Source: a virus | IMG/VR virus record: IMGVR_UViG_3300032050_008653 | Location: 1 to 20,889 of that record | Reading direction: 5' to 3' (one strand) | Length of the DNA: 20,889 nucleotides | Shown here: positions 5,796 through 20,555 of the stretch, piece after piece | How positions within the stretch are numbered: the stretch's first letter is position 1 | Layout: every line of letters starts with the position of its first letter | Notes under the pieces: generated by a model | Told to the model about the DNA's origin: nothing | The model's database searches: none | What the model saw: the letters and a program-made list of their open reading frames with translations, nothing else | Position numbers and translations under genes: made by a program

Positions 5796-6845
5796 ATGAA
5801 GATTGCTGTTTATACAATTGCTCTTAATGAGGAGAGTTTTGTAGAACGCTGGTACACCGCAAATAAAGATGCTGACTATTTAGTGATTGCCGATACTGGA
5901 TCAACAGATAAAACAGTAGAAATAGCCCGCAAACTAGGGATCCTAGTACACGAAATCCGCGTCAAACCTTGGCGCTTTGATGATGCCCGCAATGCTGCGA
6001 TGGCGCTTATCCCTGCAGATGCAGACGTATGTGTCAGCGTGGATATGGATGAAGTTCTTTACCCTGGTTGGCGCGAAGCCCTTGAATCTCAGTGGGGAGA
6101 TGCTAACCACGGTCGCTTCCTATACACATGGAATCACGAAGAAGATGGAAGTAACGGTCTTACTTTTTGGTATGAAAAAATCCACTCTCGTCACGGATAC
6201 CGTTGGAAGCATCCAGTCCACGAAATCTTACAACCAGACCGGATTGAGGAGAAGTGGGCAGATATTCATGGATTTGAACTCCATCACTTTGCAGATCCGC
6301 AAAAATCTCGTGGTCAATACTTAGATCTTCTTGCTCTTTCAGTGAAAGAAGATCCTCACAATGACCGTAACGCTTTTTATTATGCTCGTGAATTAATGTT
6401 TTATGGCCGTAACGAAGAAGCAACTAAAGAATTTAAACGTCACTTAGCCTTGCCTTCTGCTGTATGGAAAGCAGAGCGAGCAGCTGGCATGCGTTTTTTG
6501 GCTAAAGTTGATGAGCCAGAAAATGCTGAAGCATGGTTAATGATGGCGACTCAAGAATGCCCTACTGACCGGGAGCCTTGGATTGAGTTGGCTCAGTATT
6601 ACTACCGTACTTCTCAGTGGGAGCAATGCTTGAGAGCGGCTGAACGCTCTCTGACTATTACAGTGCGTGACTATAACTACCTAAGTCAAGCGTGGGCCTG
6701 GGGGCCAGAGCCTTATGATCTTGCTGCAATTGCATCTTATCGTTTAGGCGAAAAAGAAAAAGCAATTGAGTACGGTGAAAAAGCCCTTAAATTAAGCCCA
6801 GAAGATGGTCGACTTATGACAAACCTTATTTGGTACAGACAGTGA
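5796..6845 (+). CDS. GT2-family glycosyltransferase with TPR-like C-terminus
   Basis: The N-terminal part is a GT-A fold glycosyltransferase: IALNEE at about 8-13, IADTGSTDKT at about 31-40 (nucleotide-sugar binding), and the DxD-type metal motif D83-M-D85-E86 in VDMDEVLYPGW. Such enzymes transfer a sugar from a nucleotide donor in the cytoplasm. From about residue 190 the chain becomes helical repeats with the W/Y/A/P spacing of TPRs (for example AIASYRLGEKEKAIEYGEKALKLSPED split over the last 50 residues), suggesting protein binding or dimerisation. The total of 349 residues suits this GT2-TPR architecture. There is no membrane segment. It is the first gene of six overlapping sugar genes, following the candidate promoter at 5751. 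Donor and acceptor are unknown. Confidence 0.85.
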   Translation: MKIAVYTIALNEESFVERWYTANKDADYLVIADTGSTDKTVEIARKLGILVHEIRVKPWRFDDARNAAMALIPADADVCVSVDMDEVLYPGWREALESQWGDANHGRFLYTWNHEEDGSNGLTFWYEKIHSRHGYRWKHPVHEILQPDRIEEKWADIHGFELHHFADPQKSRGQYLDLLALSVKEDPHNDRNAFYYARELMFYGRNEEATKEFKRHLALPSAVWKAERAAGMRFLAKVDEPENAEAWLMMATQECPTDREPWIELAQYYYRTSQWEQCLRAAERSLTITVRDYNYLSQAWAWGPEPYDLAAIASYRLGEKEKAIEYGEKALKLSPEDGRLMTNLIWYRQ

Positions 6846-7567
6846 AAACAATAGCAGCGATACCTACACTTAACGCAATTGAATGGATTGCTCCACTAAT
6901 TGAGGGATTACTTCTTGCTGATGAGGTTGACGAAGTCTGGGTGTATGACAATGGGTGCACAGACGTAACTGCAGATTGGGTGCGTAATCGTAGGTTGCTA
7001 GATAAACGTATTTTTTTGATTGATTCCAAAGGAATGGGAATCTATCAAATGTGGAACCACATGATTAGAAAAGCAAACGAATTTGACGAAGAAGTAAACC
7101 TTGCTCTTCTTAATAGTGACATCAGGCTTCCACCTAACGCAATCAAAAACTTGTCTAAAGTTATGCGAGACCATGGGTACCAAATTGCCACCGTGGACCC
7201 AACTCGTCCAGGTCTACACTCAAAACACATCCCTGTCTGGAACAAACCCCTTGGCGAACTATTTCCAAAAGATTTTGAGCCCTACCCAATGGATACTCCG
7301 CCTGGTCATGCTGTGGCTTGGGCTTTTGTTATTGCCGCTGAGTTCTGGAAAGACCAGCCATATGCGGTAAGTGAGCAATACCAGTGGTGGTATGGAGATG
7401 ATGATTTGTTTCGGCGTGCCTACAAGAGGAATGGTCGAATTTGTAGAGTTGTTGGGGTAGGATCAGATCACTTTGGTTCTAGCAGTGATGCTTATAACCC
7501 AAGAAAGCAAGAAATGATCGACAGTGATACAAAAATATTCAACAAAATGTGGTTAGGTATTGGATAA
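6842..7567 (+). CDS. GT2-family glycosyltransferase
   Basis: I chose the GTG at 6842 because it overlaps the upstream stop as GTGA, the coupling used throughout this cassette; a TTG at 6830 is less likely. The 241-residue protein begins KTIAAIPTLNAIEW, a GT2 opening, followed by VYDNGCTD at about 34-41 (donor binding), LLNSDIRLP at about 89-97 and WWYGDDDLFRRAYKRNG near residue 183. The SD and GDDD acidic clusters are candidates for metal-diphosphate binding and the catalytic base. No membrane helices are present, so it is probably cytosolic. The sequence is unlike the neighbouring TPR-containing enzyme beyond the shared fold, so two different linkages are likely. The sugar and acceptor cannot be named. 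Confidence 0.8.
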   Translation: MKTIAAIPTLNAIEWIAPLIEGLLLADEVDEVWVYDNGCTDVTADWVRNRRLLDKRIFLIDSKGMGIYQMWNHMIRKANEFDEEVNLALLNSDIRLPPNAIKNLSKVMRDHGYQIATVDPTRPGLHSKHIPVWNKPLGELFPKDFEPYPMDTPPGHAVAWAFVIAAEFWKDQPYAVSEQYQWWYGDDDLFRRAYKRNGRICRVVGVGSDHFGSSSDAYNPRKQEMIDSDTKIFNKMWLGIG

Positions 7568-8595
7568 TGACAAAGCGAGTTCTTTTAACAGGTGCAAGTG
7601 GTTTCGTAGGAAGTCATGTTCTACGCCACTTACTAGTAAATACAGACTGGGATATTGTTTGTCCAGTAACTTTTACACATAAAGGTGTTCAAGATCGTAT
7701 TCGATTAGCTACTGAAGATAGCTCAAAATACTTTAACCGAGTAAAAATTATTCATATTGATCTTTCAGCACCCTTGAGTTCTGTAACTGCTCATGCATTT
7801 GGAAAAATTGACTATGTTTTTAATCTTGCTAGTGAAAGTCACGTAGACCGAAGCATTGAAAATCCAGCACCATTTGTTATCAATAACGTGCAGTTGATTT
7901 GTCATTTACTTGATTGGGCTCGTTCTAGCGATCATTTAGAGAAGTTTATTCATATCTCAACTGATGAAGTCTATGGTCCGGCACCAATAGGGCATGACCA
8001 CGCCGAATGGGAAGATTTACATTTCCCAAGCAACCCATATTCAGCCTCTAAAGCTGCTCAGGAAGATATTGCATACGCTTACTGGCGGACTTATGGTGTT
8101 CCACTTATCATTACAAACACAATGAATATCATTGGTGAAATGCAAGACACAGAAAAATTTGTTCCCCTTGTTATGAAAAGTATTCTTTCTGGGTATGGCG
8201 TACGCCTACACGGAGACGCTGAGGGCAGACTTGGAAGTCGTTTTTACCTACATGCTCGTAATCAAGCCGATGCTTTGCTCCATATTGCAAACACTCAAGA
8301 AGTTAACCACTATTCAGCAGATAATCCAGTTAAAGTTCCTCAAAGATTCCATGTTGTTGGTGAAAAAGAACTAGACAATCTAGAAATGGCAAAATTAATT
8401 GCTAAGTTTATGGATATGCCTCTTAAATATGAAGTAATTGACTACCGCGATAAGCGCCCTGGTCACGACCTTCGCTACGCATTAGATGGTTCCAGGTTGG
8501 CTGCAACTGGGTGGACTGCCCCTATCTCACTTGAAGATTCTCTAGAAAAAACAGTTAGGTGGACTCTAGAAAATAAAGAGTGGCTTTCTTTATGA
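7567..8595 (+). CDS. rmlB: NAD-dependent nucleotide-sugar 4,6-dehydratase (RmlB-like)
   Basis: The start is the ATG at 7567 sharing a base with the previous stop (TAATG); an upstream GTG at 7549 is inside the preceding gene. The 342-residue chain is an extended short-chain dehydrogenase. It has the NAD loop GASGFVGSH (9-17), SESHVDRSIENP near residue 93, the catalytic S131-T132-D133-E134-V-Y136 segment, the Y158-S-A-S-K162 dyad, and RPGHDLRYALD at 297-307. The SESHVDRSI, TDEVYG and RPGHD-RYA signatures together are those of dTDP-glucose 4,6-dehydratase, which makes dTDP-4-keto-6-deoxy-glucose; length fits (about 340-355). A related dehydratase or epimerase using another nucleotide sugar is possible. 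It would feed the C-methyltransferase two genes downstream. Confidence 0.85.
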   Translation: MTKRVLLTGASGFVGSHVLRHLLVNTDWDIVCPVTFTHKGVQDRIRLATEDSSKYFNRVKIIHIDLSAPLSSVTAHAFGKIDYVFNLASESHVDRSIENPAPFVINNVQLICHLLDWARSSDHLEKFIHISTDEVYGPAPIGHDHAEWEDLHFPSNPYSASKAAQEDIAYAYWRTYGVPLIITNTMNIIGEMQDTEKFVPLVMKSILSGYGVRLHGDAEGRLGSRFYLHARNQADALLHIANTQEVNHYSADNPVKVPQRFHVVGEKELDNLEMAKLIAKFMDMPLKYEVIDYRDKRPGHDLRYALDGSRLAATGWTAPISLEDSLEKTVRWTLENKEWLSL

Positions 8596-9503
8596 AAAAA
8601 AGTCGCTCTACAGCAGAAAGACGAAGTGCGACAGTAGTTCAAGACATTAATGCACTTATGTTAGACAAAGACAAAAACATAATTTACCACGTAGAAAGGC
8701 CTCCCGGAATGCTAATAACTGAAGCTTGTAAGGGTCAGGTCTATTTGGTTCGCTCTGGAAAAGTTATCAGAGACAAAGTTGTTTTATATGCTCATCACAC
8801 TAACGACGGTAAAATAACTAAGTCAGTAGCAAAACAACTAGAAAACTGGAATAACTGTGGCTGGCCTGTAGTAGTCGTTGATTCAACCCCAGAGGAATTG
8901 CCTTGGCCAGATTATGTGACTCTTATTCGTAAGCCTAATATTGGATCAGACTTTGGGTCATGGTCTGTGGGCTTACACGCTATGCCTCATTTATATGACA
9001 TTAAAAAAATATTATTTGCAAATAGTGGAGTAGTTGGTCCTTTCTGGTCATTCTCAAACTTACTTAGAGATTTTGAAGAAACAGACAAAGACATATGGGG
9101 TCTAACAACCAACTCTGATATTGATTGGCATATACAAACTTATTGGTTTGGTTTTTCTAATGGGGCTTTGCGCAGAAAGCCTATGAAAGATTTTTGGGAA
9201 AGTATAAAAATACAACCTACAAAAGCTCATATTATTGTTGCATATGAAGTTGGTATGAGCCGTCTAATTAAAAAAGAAGGTTGGTCCACTAGGGTCATTT
9301 ACCCTTTTGAAGCAGTTGGCGTAGCCAGTGGTGTCGATACTGGGACCTATAATTGGGATAGATTGCTAGATATGGGCTTACCTTTCGTAAAAAGGCGCGT
9401 TTTGCATTGGAATGGTTGGCGTATGATTCATAAAATAGAAGAGTACGGTAAAGAAGCAGTTGAATTAGCGACAGAAGGAATGAGTGAAACTTTAAGTGCC
9501 TAA
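8592..9503 (+). CDS. RgpF-like rhamnan/polysaccharide biosynthesis protein
   Basis: I place the start at the ATG of an ATGA overlap; a GTG at 8580 lies inside the previous gene. The 303-residue protein has a basic N-terminus, then VVLYAHHTNDGKI at about 56-68, VVVVDSTP, IRKPNIGSDFGSWSVGL near residue 116, ILFANSGVVGPF near 140 and DIWGLTTNSD near 169. The order (cell-surface style opening, N-x-G-x-D-F-G, L-x-N-S, GLT) matches the RgpF family (rhamnan synthesis protein F), which acts in rhamnose-containing polysaccharide assembly and is thought to be a glycosyltransferase. There is no obvious membrane helix. Within this cassette it is the third potential sugar-transferring enzyme. Family assignment is good; its reaction here is inferred. 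Confidence 0.65.
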   Translation: MKKSRSTAERRSATVVQDINALMLDKDKNIIYHVERPPGMLITEACKGQVYLVRSGKVIRDKVVLYAHHTNDGKITKSVAKQLENWNNCGWPVVVVDSTPEELPWPDYVTLIRKPNIGSDFGSWSVGLHAMPHLYDIKKILFANSGVVGPFWSFSNLLRDFEETDKDIWGLTTNSDIDWHIQTYWFGFSNGALRRKPMKDFWESIKIQPTKAHIIVAYEVGMSRLIKKEGWSTRVIYPFEAVGVASGVDTGTYNWDRLLDMGLPFVKRRVLHWNGWRMIHKIEEYGKEAVELATEGMSETLSA

Positions 9504-10779
9504 CAATACTAAATACTGCCTGGCTTGTGGTGGTTCCGATGTTAAAGAAGTTTTAGATTTAGGTTTTCAAGCACCAGCAAACAATCTTTTAGCCTCTAGG
9601 GATGAGAAAGATTATGCTGTTTATAAGTTAGGGATTGAGGCTTGTTTCCATTGTGGTCACGGTCAGTTGACTAATTTTGTCTCAGCAGAAGAGTTATTCA
9701 GTGATTATTCTTATGTTAGTTCAACAAGTCAGACCATGAAAGACCATATGCAAAAGCTTGCATATTTTGTTGCCAATCTTTGCGGTAAAGATATTTCTGT
9801 ACTTGAACTTGGATCCAATGATGGTTTGTTTTTGAAAAGCCTCAGTGTTGCTGGAATAACAAACTTTTGTGGCGTAGACCCAGCAGAAAATATTGTGTCT
9901 GTAGCAAATCAAGAAGGACTAAAAACTGTTCTTGGTTTTTGGCCTGATGTAGCAAATCAATTTGAGTCTAACTCGTATGACATTGTTATTGGACAAAACG
10001 TCTTTGCTCATACACAAAATCCGTTAGCTGCTTTAGAACAAGTTCAAAGAGTTTTAAATAAGAATGGGTATGCAATATTTCAAACTTCTCAGGCAGACAT
10101 GATTGCTAATGGAGAATTTGACACCATTTACCACGAGCACTGCTCTTTCTTCTGTGAAGATTCTATGGCTGCACTGGCTAAACGTGTTGGCTTAAAGCTT
10201 GTATACACCCACTACGTGGAGATGCACGGTAACTCATCTCTATACGTACTTGTAAACGAGGACTACGACCCAGATAAAACCTCTATTGAGTTGTCAGCAA
10301 TATCTGCTGGTCTTAATGAGGTTCAGCCGAAAGATGATGAAACAGGTTTGATTAGATCAACTCGTACTCCTGTAGATTGGGAGCAGTTCTATCAAAATGC
10401 TATTTACACCAAGCAAGTGTCTGTAGAAGTCACTGAGGATTGGAAAAACCTAGGTCACAGAATTGTCTCTGTTGGAGCCGCTGCAAAAGGAATTACTTTC
10501 TTACGTGCCTGTGATTTGGAAGTTGATGCGGTATTAGACGAGGCTCCATTAAAAATTGGTAAGTGGATTCCTGGTTTAGATGTTCAAATTACAGATTTTT
10601 CATCTATTAAAGATAACGATGCTTACATTATTAGTGCTTGGAACTTTGCGAAAGAGATTTCACTTAAGTTGGTTCAAAACGGTGCTAACCCAGATGCTCC
10701 TTGTTTTCTGTATTTCCCAAATGCAATAGTGACAACCCTTGGGTATCTTGCTGTTAATGGGCTGGCATTCCATGAGTGA
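9496..10779 (+). CDS. SAM-dependent nucleotide-sugar C-methyltransferase
   Basis: A GTG start overlaps the upstream gene by 8 bases. The 427-residue protein has the full three-domain layout of sugar C-methyltransferases such as NovU, TylC3 and TcaB9. An N-terminal zinc-binding domain carries C8-x2-C11 and C50-x2-C53. A SAM-binding Rossmann domain carries E104-L-G-S-N-D-G110 and then YDIVIGQNVFAH. A C-terminal domain carries SVGAAAKGITFL and LDEAPLKIGKWIPG. E214-H215 sits where the TcaB9-type catalytic Glu-His pair is expected, and H244-G-N-S matches the conserved HGGS region. These enzymes methylate a ring carbon of dTDP-4-keto-6-deoxy sugars, exactly the kind of product the RmlB-like enzyme two genes upstream would supply. 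Regiochemistry (C3 or C5) cannot be read from the sequence. Confidence 0.85.
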   Translation: MPNNTKYCLACGGSDVKEVLDLGFQAPANNLLASRDEKDYAVYKLGIEACFHCGHGQLTNFVSAEELFSDYSYVSSTSQTMKDHMQKLAYFVANLCGKDISVLELGSNDGLFLKSLSVAGITNFCGVDPAENIVSVANQEGLKTVLGFWPDVANQFESNSYDIVIGQNVFAHTQNPLAALEQVQRVLNKNGYAIFQTSQADMIANGEFDTIYHEHCSFFCEDSMAALAKRVGLKLVYTHYVEMHGNSSLYVLVNEDYDPDKTSIELSAISAGLNEVQPKDDETGLIRSTRTPVDWEQFYQNAIYTKQVSVEVTEDWKNLGHRIVSVGAAAKGITFLRACDLEVDAVLDEAPLKIGKWIPGLDVQITDFSSIKDNDAYIISAWNFAKEISLKLVQNGANPDAPCFLYFPNAIVTTLGYLAVNGLAFHE

Positions 10780-11461
10780 GCAACCTTCAGCAGACTTTTA
10801 CAGATCAACCCCTATAAATCTCGGTATGTCTTTGCTTGATTTTTATAGAGCTAGGCTTCTTAATCAAATACACTATGTAGATTTATATAAAGGCGTTCGT
10901 ATTTTAAAACTCCCAGAGGATTTACGTACATACGAACGTCTTATTGAAGATTCAAAACCAGAAGTTATTGTTGAATTAGGAATTGAATCAGGTGGCTCTT
11001 CGCTATGGTTTGCTGATCGCCTCAGCAATATACTTGGTGGCGGTGAAGTTATTGGCGTAGATGTCAACACTAAGGCAGCTGAAGATAACATTTCTTATGA
11101 CAAAAGAATCACTATTATAAACGGAGATTTAACTACTCCGGAGACAGTTAAGGCTGTCTATGACGCTGTTGCTGGACGTAGGGCAATGGTTATTGAAGAT
11201 GCTGCTCATACCTATCAGTGCACGATGTTTGCCATGGAGAACTATTCAGACTTAGTTCCCGTTGGTGGTTGGTTTGTTGTAGAAGATGGAATTGTTGATA
11301 TTGAAGAACTTCGTCAATACAAAGAGGCTCCGAGAGGGGTGATTCCAGCGCTAAATGATTTTATGGAGACTGAAGCAGGTAAAAAGTTTACTCGTTTGCG
11401 ACTTGCTCCTTATGGAATTACCGCAAACCCTGGTGGATGGCTCCAAAGAGAGTTTAAATAA
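10772..11461 (+). CDS. CmcI-family (cephalosporin hydroxylase-like / rhamnosyl O-methyltransferase) enzyme
   Basis: I choose the ATG at 10772, which overlaps the preceding stop by 8 bases; in-frame TTG and ATG codons at 10739 and 10757 are inside the upstream gene. The 229-residue protein has LKLPEDLRTYERLI, the SAM-binding VELGIESGGSSLWFA near residue 68, EVIGVDVNT, IIEDAAH-type residues V-I-E-D143-A-A-H and VVED172. This order defines the CmcI family, whose members include rhamnosyl O-methyltransferases; the acidic residues are the expected metal site. Despite the family name, hydroxylation is unlikely; O-methylation of a sugar is the natural reading beside five sugar genes. It closes the overlapping run; a 48-base gap with a promoter-like element follows. 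Confidence 0.75.
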   Translation: MSEQPSADFYRSTPINLGMSLLDFYRARLLNQIHYVDLYKGVRILKLPEDLRTYERLIEDSKPEVIVELGIESGGSSLWFADRLSNILGGGEVIGVDVNTKAAEDNISYDKRITIINGDLTTPETVKAVYDAVAGRRAMVIEDAAHTYQCTMFAMENYSDLVPVGGWFVVEDGIVDIEELRQYKEAPRGVIPALNDFMETEAGKKFTRLRLAPYGITANPGGWLQREFK

Positions 11462-12006: not shown

Positions 12007-13842
12007 ATGACAGAACGACAGACAGAAGATTTATCCGCAGTACAACTACACCTAGTTGATTCTGTAGAAAAAGCCACTGAGTTTCTCACTTGGCTTAGTC
12101 AACGCCGTCCATACGATGCAGTATCTGTAGATATTGAAACTGGTGAACTCGCTGGCGGTGTTCGTGGTGATGCCTTGTCTCCTTGGCACGGAGATATACG
12201 TCTTGCTCAGATTGGAGATGGGCAACAAGGTTGGTCTATACCTTGGAAAAACTGGTCTGGCGTTTTCTATGAAGCAATGAATAAATTTGAAGGTCAGATT
12301 GTTTGCCACAATATTGCTTTTGAAGCCAAGTGGTTTGCTGTTCGATCTGAGTGGGAAATGCCTTGGCATCGTGCGCACGACACAATGATTATGGCTCAGA
12401 TTATCGACCCACTGGGTTCTGGTGCGCTTAAAAAATTAGCTGCTCGTTATGTAGACTCTCGTGCTGTTGCACTGCAAGAAACTTTGGGAACAGAACTTGC
12501 CACTAATGGCTGGACTTGGGGAACTGTTCCGGTCAACTTTCAGCCTTACTGGTCTTATGGTGCGCTTGATACTGTGCTGACAATGCGTATCTGGGAACAG
12601 TTCTATGAAAAGTGCGGTCCTGGTGGTGTGTACAACACAGCATACGAACTTGAAATGGCTACAAGAAAAATTGTTACTCGTATGGAGATCAATGGGGCTC
12701 GTATAGATCTTGACTATTCTCAGAGAAAATATGAGGAGTTGGTTAACTACACGGAGTCCGTAAAAGATTGGGCTAAAAAGACGTACAACGGGGCTTCTAT
12801 AACCAGCAACATACAGTTAGTCAGGCTTTTTGAGAGTCTTGGTGCAGAAATTACTGAACTAACACCTACGGGGCAAAAGTCAGCAACCAAAGACCAACTA
12901 AAACTGTTAACAATAACTGGAAATGAAGAAGTTAAAAACCTAGCCGAAACTGTTCTTAAACAGCGAAAAGCTGACAAACTTGCTAGTAGCTACTTCTCTA
13001 ATTTTATAGATAAGAACGTTGAGGGTTTTGTTCATCCATCTGTAAAAACAATGGGTGCTCGTACCGGTCGTATGTCTATTACTGACCCTGCACTGCAGAC
13101 CCTCCCTAAGGGTGACGATGTAGTTCGCTCTGCATTCTTGCCTAAAGATGATGACCACGTGATTGTCACATCTGACCTTGACCAAGTTGAGTTTCGTATG
13201 TTCGCTTCTCTTTCTCAAGACCCCAACTTGATTCAACTATTTCACCGTGCGGACGCAACTGGTTCTGACCCATTTACTGAAATTGGCCGTGAGGTGTATC
13301 AGGAACCAGAAATGACTCGCTCTGATAAGAGACGTAACCTTATTAAGGGTGTTGTTTACGGTCGTCTATACGGCGCTGGTGTGGCTAAGCAAGCCTTAAC
13401 TGCTGGTGTACCAGAACATCAAATGAGGGCTGTTTCTGACTCTTTTGATCGTAACTATCCCGGAATGATTTCATTCCAGAAGCAGATTGAAGATATTGGT
13501 ATGCGTCGCTTACGTGGTGAGGGTCAAGGCTATGTCTATACCTGGACTGGTCGTCGTATTCCTTGCGATGATGAAAGAACCTACACCCTTGTTAATTATC
13601 TAATCCAGGGTGGAGCAGCGGAAGTTTTTAAGAGTAACTTAATTAAATTAGATCAGGCTGATTTAACAGAACTTCTTATTGTTCCCGTACACGATGAAAT
13701 TGTGCTTAATGCGCCACGTGACCAAGTGCAAGAAGTAATGCAAACTGTCAAAGAATGTATGACTACAACTGAGGGTTGGGCAGTTCCGCTTACCTCTGGT
13801 ATAGATGGACCAATGGAAACATGGGGTGAAAAGTATGTCTAA
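12007..13842 (+). CDS. polA: Family A DNA polymerase with 3'-5' exonuclease domain (T7-like)
   Basis: The replicative phage polymerase, 611 residues from the ATG chosen by Shine-Dalgarno spacing. Exonuclease motifs: D42-I-E44 (Exo I), H101-N102-I-A-F105-E106 (Exo II, with Glu where Asp is usual) and Y184-G-A-L-D188 (Exo III). Polymerase motifs: motif A D390-L-D-Q-V-E395 followed by FRMFASL; motif B R443, K447, Y451 and Y455 in the O-helix ending YGRLYGAG; motif C V-H562-D563-E564. There is no 5' nuclease domain. The O-helix has Tyr at the position of E. coli Phe762, as in T7 polymerase. The gene overlaps the RuvC-like gene by 8 bases, and a helicase, nuclease, recombinase and SSB follow. Codon and base use look like the neighbours. 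Confidence 0.95.
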   Translation: MTERQTEDLSAVQLHLVDSVEKATEFLTWLSQRRPYDAVSVDIETGELAGGVRGDALSPWHGDIRLAQIGDGQQGWSIPWKNWSGVFYEAMNKFEGQIVCHNIAFEAKWFAVRSEWEMPWHRAHDTMIMAQIIDPLGSGALKKLAARYVDSRAVALQETLGTELATNGWTWGTVPVNFQPYWSYGALDTVLTMRIWEQFYEKCGPGGVYNTAYELEMATRKIVTRMEINGARIDLDYSQRKYEELVNYTESVKDWAKKTYNGASITSNIQLVRLFESLGAEITELTPTGQKSATKDQLKLLTITGNEEVKNLAETVLKQRKADKLASSYFSNFIDKNVEGFVHPSVKTMGARTGRMSITDPALQTLPKGDDVVRSAFLPKDDDHVIVTSDLDQVEFRMFASLSQDPNLIQLFHRADATGSDPFTEIGREVYQEPEMTRSDKRRNLIKGVVYGRLYGAGVAKQALTAGVPEHQMRAVSDSFDRNYPGMISFQKQIEDIGMRRLRGEGQGYVYTWTGRRIPCDDERTYTLVNYLIQGGAAEVFKSNLIKLDQADLTELLIVPVHDEIVLNAPRDQVQEVMQTVKECMTTTEGWAVPLTSGIDGPMETWGEKYV

Positions 13843-17947: not shown

Positions 17948-18478
17948 ATGAGTACCTTAAACTGGTCCGACCTCATCAAAGAGGCTGGAGAAACAGCATC
18001 ATACGAACCACTACCAGACGGTGACTACGATTTAGTAGTTCTTGAAGGCGTGGCAAAGCAGACTCAGTCTGGCAAGACAATGTTCTCAGTTAAGGCTGAA
18101 GTACAGGGTGGTCCACACAACAAGCGTCTCGTATGGGACAACCTTGTAGTGTCTAATGACAATCCAACTGCGTTGGGTATTTTCTTTAGCAAGATGGCCG
18201 CTTTGGGATTGACTAGAGAAAATTTCTTTAGCCAAGACCCTACTAATGCTCAGATTGAAGCAGCTCTTGCTAATCGCAAGTTCCGCGCTCAAATTGGTAG
18301 TCGCGTATGGCAGGGTAACAAGAAGAATGAAATCAAGCGTTACTACCCTGCTCAGGCAGCAGCTCCAACTACAGATCCATGGGCTGAAGAACAGGCTCAG
18401 GCTGCTCCAGCACCTGCACCGGCTCCAGCACCTGCACCTGCACCCGCACCGGCTCCAGCGCCGTCTGCACCCTTCTAA
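17948..18478 (+). CDS. ssb: Single-stranded DNA-binding-like protein with Pro-Ala tail
   Basis: A strong ribosome site, AAGGAAGG at 17933-17940, lies 7 bases before the ATG, fitting high expression. Residues 1-135 form a compact domain: PLPDGDYDLVVLEGVAKQTQSG, read here as DGDYDLVVLEGVAK then TQSGKTMFSVKAEV, then NKRLVWDNLVVSND and RKFRAQIGSRVWQGNKKNEI. This matches phage DUF669-like ssDNA-binding proteins (an OB-like fold) rather than bacterial SSB. From about residue 153 to 172 it is an almost pure Pro-Ala repeat ending S-A-P-F; a terminal Phe is also the end of the bacterial SSB tip, though the acidic residues are missing here. It follows the Sak4-like gene, a common phage pairing. The Pro-Ala tract is encoded by repeated DNA. 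Confidence 0.78.
   Translation: MSTLNWSDLIKEAGETASYEPLPDGDYDLVVLEGVAKQTQSGKTMFSVKAEVQGGPHNKRLVWDNLVVSNDNPTALGIFFSKMAALGLTRENFFSQDPTNAQIEAALANRKFRAQIGSRVWQGNKKNEIKRYYPAQAAAPTTDPWAEEQAQAAPAPAPAPAPAPAPAPAPAPSAPF
18404..18466 (+). repeat. Pro-Ala coding tandem repeat in the SSB-like gene
   Basis: The 17-base unit GCTCCAGCACCTGCACC occurs at 18404-18420 and again at 18422-18438, an 18-base period. Shorter GCACC/GCACCGGCTCCAGC pieces continue to about 18466. It is GC-rich against an AT-rich background and likely to vary in length by slippage. Confidence 0.75.
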
Positions 18479-18498: not shown

Positions 18499-18530
18499 GC
18501 CTTCCAGCAAATGTTGGAAGGCTTTCTCAT
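18499..18530 (+). terminator. Intrinsic (Rho-independent) terminator
   Basis: GCCTTCCAGC (18499-18508) pairs with GTTGGAAGGC (18513-18522) over 10 base pairs with one G-U, around the 4-base loop AAAT, followed by TTTCTCATT. GAGA before and TCTC after the stem can extend it past a two-base mismatch. It is the strongest terminator in the window and closes the replication block, 21 bases after the SSB-like stop. A small TCACT/AGTGA hairpin (18480-18494) precedes it. Confidence 0.85.
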
Positions 18531-18568: not shown

Positions 18569-19585
18569 ATGAAAGTATTACTTACTGGATGTAGTGCTCC
18601 TCAGTCGTCCCCTGGATTAAATACAAGGCTTCCTACTTTTTCTGGTCTTATACGAAATGCTTTGAGTTATTCTGGACACGAAGTTGTGTGGACTACACCA
18701 TCAATAGATATGTCTGAAGAGTATCTATCCCAGTTTGATGTGGTAATAGTTGGTCTAACTCCACCCACGAGTCTTTCTTCATATCGACTATACGGGGCTT
18801 TGTCTGTCATTGAAAGAGCTCGCAAGGTGTCTAATGTTAGATATTTAGTTGATGCTCCAGAGCCCCACAAACTGTGGGCTGGGATTAGGGCGGTTGCTAA
18901 TAATCCAGAGGATCTTGTAAAAGATTTTTACTCTAAAAGATCAGAGTTTGGTAAAGCTACATCCTCAGCAAATCTTTCTCGTATTCAAGGAGTTATTTTT
19001 GATTTGTATGAAAATACTTGGGAACAGACTTTGTGTCCTTCTTTTCCTTGGTCTAAGAAAGAACACATAACAAAACACATACCTAATATTTCTGAAGATA
19101 ATTTGGATCTTTTATGTCTTGACTCATTTCTATTGACTGCCGTAGAGGATTCAACTGCTTTATATATGAAGTCAAATTCAGACCATTGGTCTACTAATCA
19201 AAAGACCCCTTGGGTTAAAAATCTTGAAAAAACACTAAAAAATAAAATTTACCCAATGTCTAGTAGTAAATGGTCTACTAATACTTCTGTATTGACAAAT
19301 ATAAATAAATCTATTGGCTCTGTAATTTCTGTGTATAAAAATGAAGAGCCTTGGTGGTCGGTAAATCTTTCTCAGTCTTTGTATGTAAATACTCCCGTAG
19401 TCACAGACTGGAAGCAGACATCTTATTTAGGAGAGTCCTGGTCCCTTTTGGCTCATAACTTAGAGGATATGTCTGTTGGGGAAAGGCTTTCTATTGCTAC
19501 AAAACAAAAGAATGATTATATAAAGGTTTTACCAGATTTTAATGAGTCAATTTATAGAGTTTTATCCTGTGTTTTTGATGTTTAA
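18569..19585 (+). CDS. GT-B-like putative glycosyltransferase of unknown substrate
   Basis: The ATG lies 90 bases after the SSB-like stop, downstream of the terminator, so the gene starts a new transcript; the only purine-rich site (GGAAAGAG, 18547-18554) is distant. The 338-residue protein opens MKVLLTGCSAP, then LPTFSGLIRNALSYSGHEVVW and DVVIVGLTPPTSLSSYRLYGAL. This beta-strand/helix order, with an early G-rich loop and VVIVGL, resembles the N-terminal half of GT-B glycosyltransferases. The second half (about residues 240-330) has SVYKNEEPWWSVNLSQSL, read as SVYKNEEPWW and NLSQSLYVNTPVV, consistent with a donor-binding domain. It looks poorer in GC than its neighbours. I know no characterised homologue; the substrate could be DNA, protein or a surface sugar. 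Confidence is for the gene; the function is tentative. Confidence 0.6.
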   Translation: MKVLLTGCSAPQSSPGLNTRLPTFSGLIRNALSYSGHEVVWTTPSIDMSEEYLSQFDVVIVGLTPPTSLSSYRLYGALSVIERARKVSNVRYLVDAPEPHKLWAGIRAVANNPEDLVKDFYSKRSEFGKATSSANLSRIQGVIFDLYENTWEQTLCPSFPWSKKEHITKHIPNISEDNLDLLCLDSFLLTAVEDSTALYMKSNSDHWSTNQKTPWVKNLEKTLKNKIYPMSSSKWSTNTSVLTNINKSIGSVISVYKNEEPWWSVNLSQSLYVNTPVVTDWKQTSYLGESWSLLAHNLEDMSVGERLSIATKQKNDYIKVLPDFNESIYRVLSCVFDV

Positions 19586-19619: not shown

Positions 19620-20045
19620 ATGAGAGATTTAAATATTGAGATGGCAAAGTCTCAACTAGAAATGGCTAAAGTGTCTGTTGATGTAGGCACTTCTGTAGTA
19701 AAACTTCTTGATTTTTGGAGAACCCTGCCCCACCTAGCATCAAACGATGCTCAAATAGTTGAAGTATTTTCAAAACTAGCTATGGGCATTGCTTTAGTTA
19801 ATAACCAAGGCAACGAGATTTGGGAACCCGGTATGCCAGGGTTTATCCGCGTTGGTGATGAAGTAAGAGTCTTGGCAGATGCTTTTGAGGGCGAGTTAGG
19901 ACAACTCCATAACGGGCGTAGGGGTCGTGTAGTTGCTGTTCGTTCAGGTGACATTATTGTTAAAACAACTGACGGTAGAGAGCCTACTCTTGATGGATCT
20001 CACTACTCTCCTTACAAAGTAGAAAAGTTAGTTGCAACATTATGA
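19620..20045 (+). CDS. Small protein with KOW/SH3-like barrel
   Basis: This 141-residue protein has a helical N-terminal half (about 1-75; MAKSQLEMAKVSVDVG, then DFWRTLPHLAS) and a C-terminal small beta-barrel: VGDEVRVLADAFEGELGQLH followed by NGRRGRVVAVRSGDIIVKT. The pattern of charged turns, G-R-R-G-R-V-V and alternating strands is that of KOW or SH3-like domains, which often bind RNA or protein. The start is ATG with only a weak GAGAG upstream. It ends in an ATGA overlap with the next gene. No function is known to me; a nucleic-acid or ribosome-associated role is speculation. Confidence 0.65.
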   Translation: MRDLNIEMAKSQLEMAKVSVDVGTSVVKLLDFWRTLPHLASNDAQIVEVFSKLAMGIALVNNQGNEIWEPGMPGFIRVGDEVRVLADAFEGELGQLHNGRRGRVVAVRSGDIIVKTTDGREPTLDGSHYSPYKVEKLVATL

Positions 20046-20257
20046 GCGTAGTCACTGTTGCTCATCTTTTGGTTAACGGAGATGATTACGACGAAATTTC
20101 TTTAGCTGCTGAAAAGCGTATTTCAGAGTTCTTTAACGTAAGTGTCTCTGACGTAAGAAAGAAATTTAACTACGAATTACTTGTTAAAGAGACAGAAGAT
20201 ATGGAAAGCGAAAGCTTTTATCAAGCACAGGTAGTGGTGAAAAATAGAGATGTCTGA
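20042..20257 (+). CDS. Hypothetical protein (71 aa)
   Basis: The ATG overlaps the upstream stop as ATGA and the gene overlaps the next by 8 bases, strong evidence for a translated, coupled gene. The product is acidic and looks like one compact alpha/beta fold: VVTVAHLLVNGDDYDEI, then ISEFFNVSVSDVRKKFNYEL and FYQAQVVVKNRDV. No cysteine motif, membrane segment or known domain is visible. Function unknown. Confidence 0.6.
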   Translation: MSVVTVAHLLVNGDDYDEISLAAEKRISEFFNVSVSDVRKKFNYELLVKETEDMESESFYQAQVVVKNRDV

Positions 20258-20555
20258 GACTACTCAAGAACCGGTTCTACAACTCAGAGTTCAAGCCCTT
20301 CGTGAAGCAGCAACAATTATTGCTGGGGATCGTGATGTTCAATATGGCGGTCCAGAAGAGAACTTTACTCGTATTGCAAAAATTTGGTCTGTAATTATTG
20401 GAGTAGATATAACTCCCGAAGATGTAGCAATGATGATGGTTGGGTTAAAAGTTGCTCGCTACGCATCTAAGTCAGGATTCCAGCCCGACACGTGGATTGA
20501 TATTGCTGGATACGCTGGTTGCGGTTATGAAGTTGGTAGTGTAGAAAAGACTTAA
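20250..20555 (+). CDS. DUF6378-like phage protein
   Basis: The 101-residue protein, overlapping the previous gene by 8 bases, reads LREAATIIAGDRDVQYGGPE, then NFTRIAKIWSVIIGVDITPEDVA, MMMVGLKVARYASKSG and DTWIDIAGYAGCGYEV. The combination GDRDxQYGxPExNF ... VALMMxxLKxAR ... DTWIDIAGYA is, as I recall it, the signature of DUF6378, an all-helical family common in phages of Gram-positive bacteria and often near nucleotide-metabolism genes. No experimentally proven function is known to me. The acidic E-x-N and D-I-A-G residues could form a metal site like the all-alpha NTP pyrophosphatases, but this is only a guess. Confidence 0.72.
   Translation: MSETTQEPVLQLRVQALREAATIIAGDRDVQYGGPEENFTRIAKIWSVIIGVDITPEDVAMMMVGLKVARYASKSGFQPDTWIDIAGYAGCGYEVGSVEKT

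Follow-up and report, generated by a model that had tools for sequence, protein, structure and literature searches.

What does a glycosyltransferase-like gene do when it lies among the DNA-metabolism genes of a phage, at a distance from the sugar genes of the same genome? The window analysed here, an IMG/VR virus record of 20,889 bases, raises this question. Judged by its gene content, with a WhiB-like gene at the 3' end and relatives in Gordonia phages and DSL-LC01, the window phage is an actinobacteriophage. A first-pass annotation had proposed that a GT-B-like gene in it might modify DNA, or might add the sugar of a separate cassette to another target. Our analysis suggests that the product of the gene is a sugar-transferring enzyme not described before, similar in shape to the DNA-glucosylating enzyme of phage T4.

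The gene, its setting and its predicted fold

The open reading frame spans exactly the interval first noticed, and its setting is as described (Table 1). It is not a chance reading frame: with one protein as query, 12 IMG/VR loci are retrieved at 56-100% identity, and with the family alignment as query the number of loci with relatives rises to 65. Fourteen annotated phage records contain a homologue; most are from Gordonia phages (22-25% identity), and DSL-LC01 stands at 32%. We refer to these proteins as family A and to the window's member as P0001. Neither Pfam nor PHROGs holds a family matching P0001 at E up to 10, and 50 pattern matches in bacterial genomes included no relative.

Table 1. 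Features of the gene and its surroundings in the window
Feature	Position	Strand	Basis
SSB-like DUF669 protein, upstream neighbour	17948..18478	+	PF05037 E 3.2e-9; PHROG single-strand DNA binding
Hairpin followed by TTTCTCATTA, intrinsic-terminator-like	18499..18522	+	10 pairs, moderate T tail; gap between SSB-like gene and glycosyltransferase gene
Family A GT-B glycosyltransferase (predicted), P0001	18569..19585	+	ORF call; ATG start, 338 aa
Asp95 codon, aligned with catalytic base Asp100 of T4 BGT	18851..18853	+	hhalign prob 52.8 (weak alignment)
Asn266 codon, in the column of BGT Arg269	19364..19366	+	hhalign; subclade counts
Downstream neighbour, weak KOW motif	19620..20045	+	DSL-LC01 WJZ48544 homologue; PF00467 E 0.0099 (below cut-off)
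DUF6378 protein, same downstream unit as the 19620 gene	20250..20555	+	PF19905 E 2.8e-29

Upstream, the SSB-like gene is the last of a PolI-RuvC-helicase-nuclease-RecA-SSB block; the C-terminal end of its product is a long Pro-Ala repeat tail (18380-18475). The terminator that had been supposed ahead of the glycosyltransferase gene is borne out by the hairpin. A hairpin occupies the SSB-to-glycosyltransferase gap in the window and in 21 of 21 loci with A only, with unrelated sequences in distant relatives, and the SSB-to-B gap in five of five module-bearing loci (families and module are described below); these loci were hand-picked, and the counts refer to those two gaps. A promoter scan returned no sigma-70-like promoter on the plus strand directly ahead of the gene. 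As for a transcript of its own, the genes at 19620, 20042 and 20250 come close behind, so that a small unit with this gene at its head is more likely than a lone gene. Its downstream neighbour is conserved among relatives in the locus map. Elsewhere in the window, a sugar cassette (5796-11461) directly follows tail-like genes and encodes two GT2 proteins, an NAD-dependent epimerase/dehydratase, an RgpF-like protein, a sugar C-methyltransferase and a CmcI/rhamnosyl O-methyltransferase-like protein.

The gene had also been called more AT-rich than its neighbours, as a hint of separate origin. At 36.0%, its GC content does lie below the 42.0% of the window as a whole. At third codon positions, however, the gene (GC3 25.7%) is on a par with others in the window: WhiB has 25.5%, the epimerase 26.7%, DUF6378 26.7% and a tail gene 28%; it is the RecA and SSB genes directly upstream that are GC-rich. 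Given this comparison and the constant position of the gene, held by a family A member in dozens of contigs, we reject AT-richness as a mark of separate origin.

AlphaFold2 modelling on a 60-sequence alignment yields two Rossmann-like halves (pLDDT 94.1, pTM 0.91). In a Foldseek search of the PDB, T4 beta-glucosyltransferase (BGT; 1bgu) ranks second (E 1.8e-4, prob 1.00, TM 0.50), after a dehydrogenase with a TM of 0.15. In VIA-align comparisons with solved structures, T4 BGT takes ranks 1 to 3, entry 1nzd giving a Z of 17.9 and an rmsd of 3.8 over 298 of 338 residues at 9% identity; SenB (Z 16.5), GlgM (15.7), MshA (15.6) and T4 alpha-glucosyltransferase (14.8) follow. The GT-B fold of the T4 BGT family extends over the whole protein and, with T4 BGT the top-ranked solved structure, the earlier guess at the fold holds despite the lack of a Pfam or PHROGs match. 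We regard P0001 with high confidence as a GT-B-type glycosyltransferase on the strength of its predicted structure; a DNA substrate does not follow from the shared fold alone. At the level of sequence, a one-to-one comparison with T4 BGT is weak, a search of the PDB with family A and B profiles gave nothing usable, and hhalign of the P0001 family against a six-member BGT alignment reaches a probability of only 52.8 (E 1.4e-4), although the match, over 317 columns, extends from end to end of the protein. For that reason, and because no Pfam or PHROG family matches, P0001 is not filed as a member of PF09198: family A is BGT-like by descent and structure and lies outside the BGT sequence family.

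Two paralogous families and a predicted hydroxymethylcytosine module

In what company does family A occur? Among 145 mapped loci, A and B occur together in 72, A alone in 61 and B alone in 12, as judged by the genes visible on each. Family B (a set of 80 of 225 loci) is paralogous to A and homologous to it along its length (hhalign prob 100, E 7.6e-50), and its predicted fold is the same, with T4 BGT again the top match (Z 19.1). Examples are L014:9863-10909 and gene 129 of BlueNGold; the corresponding PHROG, phrog_14998, is listed as of unknown function. The WWxxR motif is kept in B, with Arg268 in 28 of 28 sequences. The pair thus constitutes a phage glycosyltransferase family pair absent from Pfam, of which PHROGs has B only.

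In DSL-LC01 the genes run in the order kinase, thymidylate-synthase (TS) homologue, dCMP deaminase, PolI, RuvC, helicase, nuclease, RecA and SSB-like gene, followed by B, UDP-galactopyranose mutase, A, MazG, a C5-methyltransferase-like gene and WhiB. The same module elements recur, in related order, in the Gordonia phages BlueNGold, GodonK and GMA2, and in most relatives A and B share a syntenic operon with module genes, sometimes including UDP-galactopyranose mutase. In the window the order from PolI to the SSB-like gene is that of DSL-LC01, and A then follows directly, B being absent. The best PDB match of the TS homologue is the CMP 5-hydroxymethylase MilA, and Cys, Thr and Asp at E. coli columns 146, 147 and 177 are present in 39 of 39 TS-homologue rows, T4 gp42 included. 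In the MetaGPA study (Yang et al. 2021, PMC8670742), Asp at 177 in TS homologues marks contigs with modified cytosine, in which dCMP deaminase and MazG-like domains co-occur. Since the hydroxymethylase residues coincide with this pattern, the module-bearing Gordonia and freshwater actinophages probably carry DNA of the 5-hydroxymethylcytosine (5hmC) type. B accompanies the predicted 5hmC module in all loci examined, while A also occurs without it; we infer that B would glycosylate 5hmC DNA.

Several features of the module deserve mention in their own right. The dCMP-hydroxymethylase Asp is present in the proteins of DSL-LC01, BlueNGold and GodonK whose annotation reads thymidylate synthase (L014:1940-2800, L038:11438-12286, L039:15889-16773). 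The C5-cytosine-methyltransferase-like protein (L014:14953-16197 and relatives) is always part of the module and has a PC motif in 55 of 58 cases and an odd first motif. UDP-galactopyranose mutase adjoins B, and A where present (L014:10902-11999; L114, L115, L116, L117, L118, L125, L128), which suggests galactofuranose as the sugar donor in these phages; the DSL-LC01 paper takes the mutase as a host cell wall gene (PMC10611076). In L106 (6720-10001) another GT-B-like protein and a sugar nucleotidyltransferase-like protein stand in place of B directly upstream of A, the module being otherwise present. In the open PMC literature we found no paper on 5hmC glycosyltransferases of actinobacteriophages, on a Gordonia phage hydroxymethylase with a glycosyltransferase, or on a phage hydroxymethylcytosine glycosyltransferase with galactofuranose.

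Is the window's enzyme still equipped for catalysis? All 60 aligned members of family A have Asp95 (31/31 A-only, 29/29 module-bearing), and Trp207, Trp215, Gly250, Trp263, Trp281 and Gln313 are likewise invariant in both groups. The hhalign alignment, a weak one, pairs Asp95, Lys257, Asn266 and Gln269 of P0001 with BGT Asp100, Lys259, Arg269 and Glu272, respectively. Asp100 is said, in PDB titles and in the title of a 2003 article by Lariviere et al., to be the catalytic base of BGT. Arg269 and Glu272, which contact UDP, are shared by all six sequences of the BGT alignment; P0001 has neither. Arg fills the Arg269 column in 24 of 29 sequences from module-bearing loci, in 14 of 16 from A-only loci outside the window's subclade and in none of the 15 of that subclade, where position 257, aligned with the BGT-family invariant Lys259, is Lys or Arg in 15 of 15. 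Donor binding may be rearranged in this subclade. The missing Arg269 equivalent, together with Gln in place of Glu272, would also fit a catalytically dead protein retained for a DNA-binding, structural or regulatory purpose, but Asp95 and the invariant Trp, Gly and Gln residues are intact, and Lys or Arg at 257 looks as if it compensates, so that we hold a dead enzyme to be improbable. A relic gene is rejected on the same invariant sites and on purifying codon selection (dN/dS 0.06-0.10 versus the nearest relatives); PolI, helicase and RecA do, however, evolve more slowly than family A. Charge (predicted pI 6.3 for P0001, 9.05 for BGT) tells nothing about DNA binding here, because family B is also near neutral.

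Probable module loss and palindrome avoidance

Whole-contig searches of 49 contigs, picked for length from the 145 loci, place the TS family in 27 of 28 contigs that are not A-only and in none of the 21 that are, although two of the latter reach about 111 and 120 kb; the single miss, L118, begins inside PolI. The C5-methyltransferase family is present in one of 21 versus 27 of 28, the miss (L114) ending before that gene; the one A-only case is G002, where further C5-methylase pieces lie in a different arrangement at 67-70 kb. The five contigs nearest the window, itself a 20.9 kb fragment, have no TS-type hydroxymethylase, and the observation that no base-modifying gene is visible in the window holds. 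Exactly three gene clusters are common to all four module-bearing genomes and absent from all six A-only genomes: the kinase, the TS homologue and the C5-methyltransferase-like gene. G003 (119.7 kb, A-only) matches DSL-LC01 along nearly the whole genome; it also has a histone-deacetylase-like gene beside a dual-specificity-phosphatase-like gene (L026:11472-12413 and 12417-12920). In trees, A-only rows fall among module-bearing rows. Module-bearing outgroups, and a dCMP deaminase kept at the former module position in A-only locus L109, argue for loss rather than gain, so the window's lineage appears to have lost the 5hmC module and kept A alone. A helicase tree hints at three independent losses (p 0.0519 in the AU test of one clade), but the concatenated PolI-helicase-RecA-SSB tree gathers the 13 A-only rows into a single clade with an SH-aLRT of 84; we therefore reject a claim of three losses with A kept each time and, within a range of one to three events, claim at least one. 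L106, which has a TS homologue, was labelled A-only in the first tree and belongs to the module-bearing set in later trees and in the palindrome counts below.

Palindromic restriction sites tend to disappear from phage genomes whose DNA is unprotected. Among loci of 12 kb or more (67 of 145), at least one C-containing 4-bp palindrome is eliminated in 17 of 23 A-only loci versus none of 44 module-bearing ones, a count uncorrected for shared descent. The eliminated sites include GATC, AGCT, GGCC, CCGG and GCGC. AGCT and GATC are at zero in both G003 (438 and 294 expected) and G007 (408 and 287), as are GATC in G002 (239), GATC and CCGG in G012 (191 and 66) and AGCT in G009 (300); the A-only genomes G018 and G001 have no C-containing 4-bp palindrome eliminated. 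Observed/expected (o/e) ratios of C-containing palindromes, likewise uncorrected for shared descent, are 0.33-0.87 (median 0.69, n=17) in dereplicated A-only and 0.84-1.12 (median 1.015, n=25) in dereplicated module-bearing loci. The window has no palindrome eliminated, and its reduced ratio of 0.676 falls below the module-bearing range. Avoidance in A-only phages is as expected of unprotected cytosines.

Does the signature follow A or the module? Loci with B and the C5-methyltransferase and without A have ratios of 1.02-1.12 in six of six dereplicated cases, and L106, with a TS homologue and no B, stands at 1.02; the signature thus follows the module, and A appears to be neither needed nor enough for it. 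In DSL-LC01 (OQ999401.1, 129 kb) ATAT and TTAA are at zero (126 and 123 expected) while C-containing palindromes are normal, and loss of cytosine-free sites is what cytosine protection predicts under restriction. T4 is an imperfect control, with none eliminated and a ratio of 0.784 that stems from GATC (48 of 174 expected); T7 has 0.70. In PMC6286503, on restriction-site avoidance, a search with six terms on modified DNA found no passage. By this test, loss of a modification module would be readable from the genome sequence alone.

These results bear on the proposal that A glycosylates phage DNA here as T4 BGT does, the hydroxylated base coming from an unrecognised or outside-encoded enzyme. 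The closest solved fold, the alignment of Asp95 with the BGT catalytic base, the relatives inside a predicted 5hmC module and a Mom-family DNA-modification gene in G003 and G007 all lend it some weight. However, the acceptor-making genes are missing throughout the lineage, even from the A-only contigs of about 111 and 120 kb, a Tet/JBP dioxygenase search had 0 matches in nine records (its control was silent too), and C-containing palindromes are eliminated in most A-only loci. With the TS homologue missing, those palindromes avoided and no avoidance in module loci that lack A, glycosylation of DNA cytosine is unlikely to be the gene's job in the window's lineage, and DNA glycosylation of any such kind seems to us a minority prospect. 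The first-pass reading thus survives in its fold, its T4 affinity and its kin beside a predicted 5hmC module, and finds no support as regards DNA modification in this phage and a separate origin.

The Mom-family gene (PF25680) is confined to G003 and G007, 2 of 50 records and the near-complete genomes closest to the window (L028:2405-3076 in G003, adjoining a PNKP-phosphatase-like gene; G007:C1:67217-67834). A DNA role of A on Mom-modified adenine is possible but unlikely; were it the acceptor, a two-step, sugar-bearing adenine would arise in that branch.

Proposed role and comparison with known systems

We propose that the gene encodes a nucleotide-sugar-dependent GT-B glycosyltransferase, with the T4 DNA glucosyltransferases as its nearest solved relatives, which would have arisen as one half of the paralogous A/B pair inside a predicted actinobacteriophage 5hmC-DNA module. 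In module-bearing phages the dCMP hydroxymethylase, kinase and deaminase would make and incorporate 5hmC, and B, the module-linked half, would glycosylate it. The window's lineage would have lost the module and retained only A. Asp95 would serve as catalytic base, the sugar nucleotide lying in the cleft towards the C-terminal half. With the 5hmC pathway gone and only A kept, hydroxymethylated phage DNA is probably not what the enzyme acts on; the likeliest acceptor is a protein or some other non-DNA molecule made or met during replication-gene expression. That T4 BGT, a DNA enzyme, tops the structural matches counts against such an acceptor, although SenB, MshA and other non-DNA enzymes come close behind; so does the operon shared by A and the module in most relatives, which points to a DNA role there. 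Taken as a whole, this is our best explanation, unproven, and we rate its chances as about even, the non-DNA acceptor above all being conjecture.

Could A instead add the sugar made by the window's cassette to a virion or surface target? The cassette is present, with the gene a few kilobases downstream of it. However, the gene stays beside the SSB-like gene, far from virion genes, DSL-LC01 has nucleotide-metabolism genes rather than a sugar cassette upstream of PolI, tRNA arrays surround A in Gordonia phages, and no cassette gene is of the same family as A; a cassette-fed role accordingly seems improbable. Quite improbable, too, is a more specific variant in which a BGT-like enzyme was redirected after 5hmC loss to a host defence protein or a phage protein, or to Mom-type adenine in the G003/G007 branch. 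The lineage offers a natural experiment, an acceptor pathway having apparently gone while one transferase was kept, and, if our preferred account of a non-DNA acceptor is confirmed, a new target of glycosylation in infected cells should be found by way of the retained enzyme.

How does the system compare with those already described? The MetaGPA contigs (PMC8670742) resemble the relatives' module in their TS homologues with Asp177, dCMP deaminase and MazG-like domains, but their final modifier is a carbamoyltransferase, where the actinophage module has a GT-B pair; the window's lineage differs further in having apparently lost the module. Family B is like A in homology, fold and top match, and differs in its constant tie to the module. 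With respect to T4 BGT (b-gt; PF09198), P0001 differs in its low identity and lack of a Pfam match, in Asn and Gln at the Arg269 and Glu272 equivalents, in its lower predicted pI and in a lineage without hydroxymethylase. It is like BGT, and like T4 alpha-glucosyltransferase (PF11440), in a two-domain GT-B fold shared over its whole length, and, if the weak alignment holds, like BGT in the Asp that falls in the column of the catalytic base; and just as T4 b-gt adjoins gene 42 and lies near uvsX, the genes of its relatives lie near a dCMP hydroxymethylase homologue and a RecA-like gene.
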